A DNA stretch of 36,369 bases, from NCBI GenBank assembly GCA_022791945.1, contig JAAVZY010000045.1, positions 1 through 36,369 on the forward strand, in the 5' to 3' direction. Source of the DNA: Oscillospiraceae bacterium. GTDB lineage: Bacteria > Bacillota > Clostridia > Oscillospirales > Ruminococcaceae. The notes beneath the pieces were generated by a model, which saw only the letters and a program-made list of their open reading frames with translations, did no database searches and had not been told where the DNA came from. Shown piece after piece: positions 1,554 through 34,934 of this stretch; the stretch's first letter is position 1, and every line of letters begins with the position of its first letter. Both the position numbers and the translations under genes were made by a program.

Positions 1554-2788
1554 TAGAGAGCATCCAGAGTAGAACGAACCGTCTGTTCCCACAGGAAGAG
1601 GTTTTCAGGGCGGTAAGACACTGTGCTGATATCCTTGAGCACCAGCTCATAGGGGCAGCCGTGACGCTGGCAGGCTTCCACGGTTTCCAGCAGCTCCCGC
1701 CGGATTTCCTCCGGATCCGTTTGGATGGCTACATTGGCCGGATTGGGTTTCCGGGCGTATACATAGCTGCTCCCCAGCTGCTCCGCGCAGGATTCCACGC
1801 TGGCCCAGGGGCTGACCCCGATCTTGCGCATGTTGGGAATCTTTTTCAGCAGGTCGATCTTGTTGTCCAGAGGCTCGCAGCAGCCGTAATAGACCAGCCC
1901 GCACTGATCAAACAGCGCCCGTGAATAGTCCAGATCAAATTCCTGGTGCATGGCCGGGGACACGGACGAGAACATCTGCGCCATGCTCCGGATCCATACG
2001 TCCTTGCGGCGCAGGGGGCCTCCCGCATAATCCGCTGCCGGCAGATCCCGCACCAGCCCGGGGGTGCAGTGAAGAGTGGGCGCTTCGCATTCCAGCACGC
2101 CCAGCTCCTCATACCGCCGGATGGTGTACAGCCCGATTTCGGTAAATTTCCCGATGATCCGATGGATATGCTCCGGACGCTCCGCCATGTCCATCAGCAC
2201 CGACTCCACGCCCCGATACCGGATAATCTGATCCCACGGGGCATAGTAGATTTCCGTTCCCCGGAGGCGCACCGGCAGAATCCCCTCAAGCAGCTCCCCG
2301 GCCAGGGCCAGATTCCGCTGATCCTGCTCCGGATCCCCTGTAATTTCCGGGATGCGGATGCGCTCCACATCCTCCTCGGAAGCCAGCTGATCCTGATATT
2401 TGTGGGAGATGATGTTGTTCCGCCCGTCCAGGGCGATGGTGTCCTCCTCCACAGTGAGGCCGATGCCGGTGCTGCGGATGATTTTCCCCACCGGATAATA
2501 GGCCTCCAGCAGCTGATCACAGGGGAAATGCTTCTGCTGATAGATCCGCCGCCGGAAGAACTGCTCCATCCCCCGTGCGAAGGGATCCTCGCAGCGGAGG
2601 GCAAGCTGCCCGTCAAAATCCATCTCGTGCCAGGGTACCTCGTCGATGAGCACCGGAGGCCGTCCCGCCTCCAGGCTGTTGTTGGCTATCTGCCGGGCAC
2701 GCTTCCTTTCCTGGGCCGGATCCTGTGCGTATTCTGCATATTGGCGTGCCAGCTCCCGCAGTAGCTCCCGTTCCGCTGAGGTAATCAT
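1541..2788 (-). CDS. Uroporphyrinogen decarboxylase family protein (URO-D / corrinoid methyltransferase-like)
   Basis: Length and motifs such as 'YYAPWDQIIRYRGVESVLMDMAERPEHIHRI' and 'YYGCCEPLDNKIDLLKKIPNMRKIGVSPWAS'; start MITSAER with GAGGAGGAAG RBS. Confidence 0.8.
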   Translation of the reverse strand: MITSAERELLRELARQYAEYAQDPAQERKRARQIANNSLEAGRPPVLIDEVPWHEMDFDGQLALRCEDPFARGMEQFFRRRIYQQKHFPCDQLLEAYYPVGKIIRSTGIGLTVEEDTIALDGRNNIISHKYQDQLASEEDVERIRIPEITGDPEQDQRNLALAGELLEGILPVRLRGTEIYYAPWDQIIRYRGVESVLMDMAERPEHIHRIIGKFTEIGLYTIRRYEELGVLECEAPTLHCTPGLVRDLPAADYAGGPLRRKDVWIRSMAQMFSSVSPAMHQEFDLDYSRALFDQCGLVYYGCCEPLDNKIDLLKKIPNMRKIGVSPWASVESCAEQLGSSYVYARKPNPANVAIQTDPEEIRRELLETVEACQRHGCPYELVLKDISTVSYRPENLFLWEQTVRSTLDALYGRP

Positions 2789-2857
2789 ACCGCTTCCTCC
2801 TCGTAAATCCTGAAATCCTTTTGCACCTTTCCGAACAGCCCCGGAGCGCAAAAAGCC

Positions 2858-4129
2858 CTATTTTGCAACAGGCGCGACAGCCGCCGCAGCCCTGACCTCC
2901 ACTTCCTTCAAGGGCAGACCGACGCCCTGGGCAATCCGGCGCACGTCGTCAAATTCGGGCTTGCAGCGGGTGACTCCATAGCCTTCGCTGATCTTCACCC
3001 GCAAAGGGCCGTAGTCGGTTTCTGTCTCCACCCAGCGGGAGCGGAGCACCATCCGGGAGCAGAGCCGCCGCCGGACGCCGATGGTGGTGGTATGGGTCAG
3101 GAGCAGTTCGCCAAATTCCCGGCTCCGTTCCGGCGCGCAAAGGCAGGTGAGCATCACTGCCGGACGTCCCTTTTTCATTCCAATTGGCGTGGTAAACACG
3201 TCCAGAGCGCCCTTTTCCAGCAGCAGCTCCATTGCGTAGCCAATGGCTTCTCCGGTCATATCGTCTAGGTTGCAGGAAAGCTCCGTCACCTGATTGGTGA
3301 AGCCGTCCTCTCCGGCGCTCTCCCCCCAGAAGGCCCGGAGGCAGTTGGCTGCGGAAAGCTCTCTGGCGCCCATGCCGCAGCCAATTTTCGCCACCTGCAT
3401 CAGGGGCTGACTGCCGAATTCCCCGCCGAAATATTTCAGCAAGGCCGCTCCGGTGGGCGTGCAGAGCTCGCAGTCCACCGGGCCTCCTGCCGAGGGGATT
3501 CCCTCCAGGAGCAGAGCGGTGGCCGGCGCCGGAACCGGAAGAAGCCCGTGCGCGCACTTCACCATGCCGCCCCCCACCCGCACCGGGGAAACCACGATCC
3601 GCTCCGGTTTCAGCAGGTGAAGCAGAAGACAGCAGGCGGTCACGTCCGCCACCGCGTCCAGCGCCCCCACCTCAAGAAAATGAACCTCTTCCACCGGACG
3701 GCCGTGAACCTGGGCCTCCGCCTCGGCAATGAGCCGGTAAACCGCCTTGGCGTCCATCCGAACCTCCTCCGGAAGCCGGAGGCCGTCGATCAGCTGGCAG
3801 ATGGAGCCGTAAGCCGCGTGAGCGTGCTCATGGGGGTGGGAATGGTCATGATCATGCAGATGTTCATGATGATGGTGTTCGTGACCGTGGTCATGGTCAT
3901 GATGATGTTCACAGCCCTCCTCCTGTCCGTGGATCCGGACAGAAACGCGGGTGCCGCCGATGCCGCATCGCTGGGCGGGCAGTGCTTCCATGACAGCTCC
4001 GGGAATCCCGGCTTCGTTCATCTGGCGGAGGAAACCCTCCTGATCCGGCAAAAGCTCCAGCAGTGCGGCGGTCAGCATATCCCCCGCCGCGCCCATGGCA
4101 CATTCCAAATACAATGTTTTCAACGTCAT
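2858..4129 (-). CDS. larC: Nickel pincer cofactor biosynthesis protein LarC (single continuous ORF)
   Basis: MTLKTLYLECAMGAAGDMLTAALLEL, His-rich linker, VHFLEVGALDAVADVTACCLLL, ELSCNLDDMTGEAIGYAMELL. Confidence 0.92.
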   Translation of the reverse strand: MTLKTLYLECAMGAAGDMLTAALLELLPDQEGFLRQMNEAGIPGAVMEALPAQRCGIGGTRVSVRIHGQEEGCEHHHDHDHGHEHHHHEHLHDHDHSHPHEHAHAAYGSICQLIDGLRLPEEVRMDAKAVYRLIAEAEAQVHGRPVEEVHFLEVGALDAVADVTACCLLLHLLKPERIVVSPVRVGGGMVKCAHGLLPVPAPATALLLEGIPSAGGPVDCELCTPTGAALLKYFGGEFGSQPLMQVAKIGCGMGARELSAANCLRAFWGESAGEDGFTNQVTELSCNLDDMTGEAIGYAMELLLEKGALDVFTTPIGMKKGRPAVMLTCLCAPERSREFGELLLTHTTTIGVRRRLCSRMVLRSRWVETETDYGPLRVKISEGYGVTRCKPEFDDVRRIAQGVGLPLKEVEVRAAAAVAPVAK

Positions 4130-23009: not shown

Positions 23010-23530
23010 CAGAGCCTATTCAAGATCTCTGGGTATCAGGGGAAGACCTCGAGAGCTCTGCTCTCGAGCTCTCGCCAAGGGGATTAAATCCCCTTGGATT
23101 CCCGTAAATTTTTTTGGGGGTGGGGGCCTTCCTCGCTGATACTCCCTACGTGGCTGATCGCCCGCCTACCCATTTTTTCGTAAAGAAAAAATTCATCCCC
23201 ATAGGCGGCGCAGACCGTACGACGCAGAAAGCCCCGAGCGTGTTCTGTTACGCTCATACTGTCTGCGCCGCAGGAACTATCCCGCACGCAGGGGGGAGCT
23301 TTTTTCTTTACGAAAAAAGCGTACTGCGTGAATCAGACTATCTGCGTGGCAGAAAGCTGGAAGTCTGTACAGACTTGACCCCACCCCTTTTTCCGCCCTT
23401 GAAAAGCCCTTAAAAATTACGGGTTCCAAGGCGATTTAGATCCCCGATGCGTCGTGAAACGACGCACCGCAGAGCCGCGAGACAGAGTCTCGCGGCCTTG
23501 CCCGACCGCGCAGAGAGCCTGAACAGCCTC
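23010..23530 (+). repeat. Modular intergenic repeat copy G (forward; both terminal repeats recognisable)
   Basis: Left AGAGCCTATTCAAGATCTCTGG; right GCGCAGAGAGCCTGAACAGCCTC (inverse of GAGGCTGTTCAGGCTCTCTGCGC); internal modules as copy A. Confidence 0.94.
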
Positions 23531-23743
23531 CTAGCGTTCTGTGTGGGGGCGGGCGTTGGGGAGCAGCTCTCCTGGAGCGTACCGAAGATAGTCTGCCGGA
23601 TCCGTGGAGAGGATCCGTTCAATCTGCAGGCCCTCCGGAGAGCTTCTGCCCTGAAACAGGCTTTCGCCCTGCCGCCGGTATTCCATCGGCCCGGGCGGCT
23701 CATAGAAGATTGCATATTCACTGACCACTGTGTGCAGAAGCAT
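23531..23743 (-). CDS. ylzJ: YlzJ-like protein
   Basis: [18 protein letters not shown]-terminus and position immediately downstream of, and overlapping, a tepA-like gene. Confidence 0.75.
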
Positions 23744-26522: not shown

Positions 26523-26641
26523 TTCATGGTATAATAAGTGCAAATCACTTATTATACCATGGCCAAGGCGATGCGCTCACTTCGTTCGCTCCCGCCTCTA
26601 TGGCCGATTATACCATTCCGCTTTGCTTCATGGTATAATGA
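26523..26641 (+). repeat. TGGTATAAT-bearing palindromic repeat, copy 2
   Basis: CATGGTATAATAAGTG-CAAAT-CACTTATTATACCATG palindrome (26525-26561), then GGCCAAGGCGATGCGCTCAC...GATTATACCA and CATGGTATAATG; homologous to 15159-15288. Confidence 0.92.
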
Positions 26642-30631: not shown

Positions 30632-30658
30632 GATGCCATCTCTCCTCTCTTGTGCCTA

Positions 30659-30821
30659 AGAGCCTGTTCAAAATCTCCGGGCGCAGCGTCTGAAAGGCGC
30701 TTTTTCCGCACAGGCGGCGTCAAAAATGCTCGGAATCCACAAAGGATTCCTCCGCTTTTTTCCTTGCTGTGCAAAAAAATCCCCTTCCATTCGCCCCACC
30801 CAGAGATTTCGAACAGGCTCT
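30659..30821. mobile_element. MITE-like element with 23-bp terminal inverted repeats
   Basis: Left AGAGCCTGTTCAAAATCTCCGGG, right CCCAGAGATTTCGAACAGGCTCT (2 mismatches in 23); TAA on both sides of GAGCC...GGCTC; no ORF. Confidence 0.8.
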
Positions 30822-30974
30822 AAAAAGTTTAACACAAAAAAGGTGTGTTGTCATTACCTTCTGCTAAAGAAATTCTGACAGATAGTTCCCGAAGGGCAAG
30901 GACAGACACCCGAAAGCCCACACAAATCCCCTCTCTTTGCCCCTAAAAAAGAGAGCAAAAGCGCATACAGACCG

Positions 30975-31805: not shown

Positions 31806-31880
31806 CCTCTGCGTGGCCGGAGGTCAAGGTCGCGAGACGCGGCCTCGCCCTTCGACCACGCAGAGATTCCCAACGGGCTC
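31806..31880. repeat. Modular intergenic repeat copy J (vestigial: ends only)
   Basis: CTCTGCGTGGCCGGAGG...CGAGACGCGGCCTCG...CCTTCGACCACGCAGAGATTCCCAACGGGCTC terminal inverted repeats. Confidence 0.8.
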
Positions 31881-34784: not shown

Positions 34785-34934
34785 GGGCAAGACCTTGAGA
34801 GCTCTGCTCAAGGGTCAAGGCCACAGGCCTTGACCCTGCGCGCCATTCGCCAAAGGGATTAAAATCCCCTTGGAAGAGCGCGAGACAGCACGGCCTCGCC
34901 CTTCAACGCACGCAGAGATTCTGAACAGGCTCTA
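34785..34934. repeat. Modular intergenic repeat copy K (ends and hairpins only)
   Basis: CAAGACCTTGAG..., GGGTCAAGGCC-ACA-GGCCTTGACCC, right end ACGCAGAGATTCTGAACAGGCTC|TAA. Confidence 0.82.

Follow-up and report, generated by a model that had tools for sequence, protein, structure and literature searches.

A MITE with IS5-family ends carries a folded core kept over many genera while the ends vary

Positions 30659..30821 of the window (the whole stretch of DNA that was analysed, 36,369 nucleotides) hold a 163-bp element with no gene inside. We propose that this element is a MITE moved by an IS5-family transposase, that it carries a class-wide folded core of presumed function, and that the ends around this core, and hence the transposases, were repeatedly exchanged; taken as a whole, we consider this reading probable. 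The original prediction overlooked the main point, namely that it is the interior of the MITE that is conserved, and missed both the full-length foldback and the sister copies, of which the genome has some 20 or more. The MITE, referred to as family A, and its parts are located as follows:

30659..30821, minus strand (structured sense): whole MITE of family A, a full-length foldback, based on copies, fold and homologues
30657..30659, no strand: left target duplication TAA, based on its identity to the right flank and on the TNA pattern across copies
30660..30682, plus strand: left terminal inverted repeat (TIR) GAGCCTGTTCAAAATCTCCGGGC, based on the TIR pattern in the sequence
30701..30781, minus strand: conserved structured core (models R1/R2) with stems P1, P2 and P3 and internal loops AAGGC/AACGC and CGCAG/AAG, based on covariance model (CM), covariation and distribution
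30798..30820, minus strand: right TIR, reading GAGCCTGTTCGAAATCTCTGGGT on the minus strand, based on the TIR pattern in the sequence
30821..30823, no strand: right target duplication TAA, based on the sequence and TNA flanks

The prediction of a 163-bp element with inverted TIRs and TAA at both junctions was borne out, with the TIR proper (GAGCC...GGCTC, 30660-30820) starting one base inside the 163-bp limits. The TIR is GAGCCTGTTCRAAATCTC, and the element begins with GAGCCTGTTCAAAATCTC and ends with the inverted GAGCCTGTTCGAAATCTC, each bordered by TAA. With at most 3 mismatches, the TIR pattern matched 8 times in the window compared to 0.55 times in shuffles; with at most 2 mismatches, it matched 245 times genome-wide compared to 6 times with the pattern reversed. 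A blastn search of the genome of origin (G000; 2.75 Mb in 157 contigs) returned at least 20 full or near-full MITE A copies with 81-98% identity, and all 18 own copies tested for their position are intergenic. The element, being short (163 bp), multi-copy and without a transposase gene, has the features that define MITE membership. Identical TNA triplets, placed inside CTNAG-like sites, flank 11 of 19 own MITE A copies, and when ends are defined by profile, TNA adjoins 35 of the 40 ends that belong to elements of MITE size. Homologues of ~150-163 bp with the same ends and diverged arms occur in a genome of the same genus (G003) and in two genomes of other genera (G036 and G023), and TNA is duplicated at 5/7 copies in G036 and at 5/6 copies in G023. 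The predicted minus-strand RNA fold of MITE A has an energy of -102.5 kcal/mol (z -12.0) and is a foldback over the entire length of the element.

The 3-bp target duplication, for which empty sites had been proposed as the check, was confirmed at a sister family, MITE B, and for the window copy no orthologous empty site could be aligned, genus relatives being ~65-81% identical over most matched stretches. MITE B is 162-163 bp long, has the ends AGAACCTGTATTCAYAGC, and has a 79-bp stretch in common with MITE A (86-89%). When joined, the flanks of MITE B match uninterrupted modular repeats with a single copy of TTA/TAA, and these paralogous empty sites confirm the duplication. Because the copies of MITE B are near-identical, we take them to be young; they break the assembly, and many contigs terminate there (C10, C16, C22, C30, C33, C34, C46, C53 and others in G000). 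Three copies of MITE A (L006, L023 and L028, on contigs C64, C11 and C151) occupy one and the same position in an IS3-like transposase sequence, suggesting that the MITE has travelled inside another IS; an empty copy of this site was not found in the own genome. The window also contains another palindromic repeat at 26526-26639 (CATGGTATAATAAGTGC...TTATACCATGG), of which ~115-bp relatives occur many times in the genus relatives G003 and G006.

The sequence evidence supports that the window element is a MITE of an IS5-family IS. The own genome has six matches to PF01609 (DDE_Tnp_1). At L048 (contig C54), an IS5-type transposase is left as a 3' fragment, the stop of which adjoins AGAGCCTGTTCAAAATCT, a sequence whose first 18 positions are identical to the MITE end (18/18), and a second, decayed remnant (L049) has a TIR match of 15/18. 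Only decayed or incomplete copies of the partner IS are present in this genome; its 123-aa transposase fragment scores 97 bits with NF033580, under the cut-off of 110, and the complete relative L079 scores 214 bits with NF033580 (IS5_3; cut-off 110). A scan of named genomes using the L048 fragment identified two-ORF ISs of ~0.85-0.92 kb in Ruminococcus, lactobacilli, Wolbachia, Nitrospira and others, with overlapping ORFs and like TIRs that extend into the terminal part of the transposase gene; 57% is shared with a Wolbachia relative, and TNA was read at the Ruminococcus IS copies L074, L079 and L118. On a contig from uncultured Clostridia (L057), a core-bearing MITE (2312-2473) and an apparently complete IS (2491-3381) have the same TIRs and are separated by 17 bp, and the own fragment shares 74% identity with the transposase of this IS. 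An IS with matching ends, on whose existence the original prediction turned, was thus found (as a remnant at L048 and apparently complete at L057), and the IS5-family origin it had suggested for the MITE agrees with own transposase remnants adjoining the same TIR, with two-ORF relatives elsewhere carrying it and with the TNA triplets at 11/19 copies. Among 80 relatives searched for an autonomous IS, no close relative of the transposase was detected. The IS427-type copy L051 and others were rejected as partners, having ends GAGTCTGTTCTCAC or none that were found, and no match to the MITE TIR. In its TIR AGARCCTGTYYARNATCT, TNA duplication, length, overlapping two ORFs and TIR reaching into the transposase gene end, the partner IS resembles ISWpi1-like members of the IS5 family (NF033580). 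The TIR of ISWpi1 is 23 bp long (PMC3004938). Unlike the ISs of this type in Wolbachia, Lactobacillaceae and Ruminococcus relatives, the window element is geneless and its partners in the own genome are truncated.

Reading outward from the modular repeats of the window, the MITE end recurs at the following positions:

23011..23531, plus strand: modular copy G, with an exact TIR on the left, a degraded one on the right, and flanks CCA and CTA without duplication
31863..31880, minus strand: degraded TIR-like end, probably of copy J, with 2 mismatches
34915..34932, minus strand: exact TIR on the right of modular copy K, with no partner TIR found on K left

Both of the intact ends expected from the original prediction, on copy G left (23012-23029) and on copy K right, are exact. 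The degraded ends that it listed are plausible for G right (23513-23530) and at 31863-31880, each with 2 mismatches, and for copies D and E nothing above background was found; other weak TIR matches in the window have scores that are reached by shuffled windows or lie inside repeats. Together with the facing and the flanks described next, these matches show that the ends of the modular repeats are transposon ends. Among TIR-profile neighbours within 800 bp, 21 pairs point inward compared to 2 outward (3 are tandem), and TNA lies at 17 of 20 profile-defined modular ends, both of which speak for the idea that this IS mobilises the modular repeats as genuine transposable units of ~430-630 bp; the spacing of paired ends falls into two size classes of about 50-185 and 437-631 bp. 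However, left and right flanks are identical in only 3 of 10 modular elements with profile-defined ends (superseding 1/12 from an earlier end definition), which is not distinguishable from chance (0.29), and many modular copies lack one TIR or both. With the TNA flanks agreeing in only these 3/10, we give transposition of the modular repeats as units even chances; recombination between copies would account for the mismatched flanks. The transposition origin suggested for the modular family is thus supported only in part, by the ends, which are shared, inward-facing and TNA-flanked, but not by agreement between the two flanks. Tiny elements with little beyond two TIRs (42-67 bp) were also observed (L147, 2468-2518; L155, 2428-2494; L148, 2720-2786; L169, 2483-2524).

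Inside the MITE lies the folded core of ~80 nt, which is conserved together with its internal loops AAGGC/AACGC and CGCAG/AAG, unlike the arms and ends of the element. The core CM has a sole match in the window, with 83.5 bits and an E-value of 7e-21 (E-values of the core models are rough). In an alignment of 32 cores, 23 of the 24 base pairs have both-sided changes, covariation scores 0.636 compared to 0.162 ± 0.015 in shuffled controls and at most 0.146 in slid controls (32 rows), and 91.3% of cells are pairing compared to 65.3% after shuffling; some of the rows had also served to train the model to which this alignment (A3) was fitted, so that these values lean towards structure. Arm-to-arm copying in a palindrome could also preserve pairing without selection on the folded strand and, in this way, add to the covariation.

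Concerning the role of the core, one proposal, which we regard as possible but somewhat doubtful, is that it acts as RNA in read-through transcripts, as a processing site, stabiliser or terminator in the style of ERIC or Correia/NEMIS. On the sense strand, the helices contain G.T in 57 cases and A.C in 8, a figure that leans on an alignment made in the sense orientation and that amounts to favouring G.U over A.C on one strand; copy-specific changes likewise comprise 43 G.U compared to 24 A.C (p = 0.03), the apical hairpin of the MITE fold is terminator-like, and the tested own copies are all intergenic. A strand-blind self-alignment of the core with loops included gave A.C 108 compared to G.T 83 and no G.T excess, probably because the conserved internal loops get paired. 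Arguing against an RNA role, own copies have no orientation bias towards neighbouring genes (7 same, 6 opposite). No protein recurs within about 1.5 kb of 57 core loci, and with neither an orientation bias nor a linked protein found, nothing points directly to the role of the core. Searches of Rfam 15 above the gathering score gave no match in four core loci and only two tRNAs in the window.

According to a first covariance model, which covers the middle 82 nt of the MITE, 88 of the 249 genomes of the family contain the core, and these represent 54 of its 126 genera. With a second model, matches were obtained in 83 of the 391 class genomes (E <= 1e-5) and in 13 of 399 genomes drawn phylum-wide, nine of them outside the class; the core was not found in plasmids, phages or viral contigs. 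Core-bearing elements are foldbacks of 160-180 bp or are ~280 bp long with two inverted cores, and the flank sequences differ between copies beyond the TIRs. The ends of these elements include GAGCCTGTTC, GAACCTGTGGTCAATAAC, GGGCGTGTTGACACTATC and GGGTGTTTCTGAGAA, as well as GGGGTTCTCTAAAAACCGG, GTAAACACTGATTAAA, AGACCTCCACGG and TAGGCATAAGAGAGTCGAAT, and 29 sampled ends fall into 12 groups at a loose threshold, the largest of which is IS5-like. Three end types are present in the own genome alone, AGAGCCTGTTC in MITE A, AGAACCTGTATTC in MITE B and TAGGCCTTGTTTGA around a core at L257 (contig C135:6747-6827), and G165 and G277 each have three end types in four copies. Because the duplication is 3 bp (TNA) with GAGCC/GAACC ends but 4 bp in G238 (4/4) and G431 (3/6), more than one kind of transposase was involved. 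For some core matches, especially outside the family, the search for surrounding TIRs returned none. At loci of G314 and G474 (L293, L296, L297, L304 and L305), elements of ~280 bp have two inverted cores between TIRs of another type. A conserved core amid unrelated ends is a pattern that we found in no database or paper searched, and searches of the open-access literature by sequence and by terms returned nothing relevant on it.

We also considered that the element may be an ordinary MITE only, that is, a deletion derivative of an IS5-family IS in which core likeness reflects descent or horizontal transfer without function and in which the ends drifted together with their transposases. The TIRs of the main cluster are all IS5-like and grade into each other, and several genera have A-type MITEs that bear the same TIR; indeed, many IS5-type ends lie along a continuum, which may reflect divergence instead of swapping, and clearly unrelated ends are fewer. 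Nevertheless, we consider this account unlikely, as core and loops are conserved and arms and ends are not, unrelated end types exist, some of which duplicate 4 bp rather than 3 bp, and both-sided changes affect nearly all pairs (23/24). Finally, it is quite improbable that the core is a single-stranded DNA hairpin for the host replication machinery or an HUH (Y1) transposase in the style of REP/REPIN or IS200/IS605, with the DDE ends being secondary: the strand-specific structure, the conserved internal loops, the REPIN-like ~280-bp elements with two inverted cores and the 57 to 8 excess of G.T over A.C would fit, but the TIRs are of DDE type, the duplications are fixed, no recurrent protein accompanies the 57 loci, and an 80-nt hairpin is far longer than REP or IS605 hairpins.

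At the level of sequence, the comparisons demonstrate borrowed ends, a 3-bp duplication, a conserved folded core and exchanged ends; in addition, we infer mobilisation in trans, a single-strand function of the core and capture of ends by fold-back. Specifically, in the preferred reading of an IS5-moved MITE with exchanged ends, an IS5-family DDE transposase (NF033580 type, two overlapping ORFs, ISWpi1-like) would bind both GAGCCTGTTC ends in trans, the element would insert at CTNAG-like sites with duplication of TNA, and the partner IS would since have decayed in the own genome. The core, as RNA or single-stranded DNA hairpin, may help the element to persist or spread. More tentatively, new ends might be gained when replication folds back at the hairpin beside an IS end and copies this end inverted, which would explain why the arms are palindromic right up to the TIRs. 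A bolder proposal is that the core is a new class-wide structured RNA or single-stranded DNA domain that is long-lived by taking the ends of any available DDE transposase, i.e. a selfish hairpin that switches vehicles, perhaps via fold-back copying of an IS end nearby; we see this as a serious possibility that falls a little short of even chances.

The elements share with bacterial MITEs that they are short and non-coding, have IS-shared TIRs and target duplications, and are present in many intergenic copies; they differ in that the interior and not the ends is conserved between genera, in the full-length foldback, and in having one core with many ends. Like REP, BIME and REPIN sequences, they are dispersed intergenic hairpins, at times with two inverted, but they have DDE-type TIRs, duplications of 3 or 4 bp and an 80-nt core, and no RAYT-like neighbour, by which REPINs are recognized, was found near the 57 core loci. 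With ERIC and Correia/NEMIS they have in common long imperfect intergenic palindromes that likely fold as RNA, whereas their host range is much wider, their ends are exchangeable, their sequence is different and their core matches no Rfam 15 family above threshold.

As a rule, MITEs are both defined and classified by the ends that they borrow from ISs. Here, the reverse applies: a folded core is kept over many genera, and the ends vary even within one genome. The origin of MITEs, their survival beyond their transposases and the possibility that a non-coding repeat can have its own function thereby become testable, and the covariance model is a ready tool for searching for the core.
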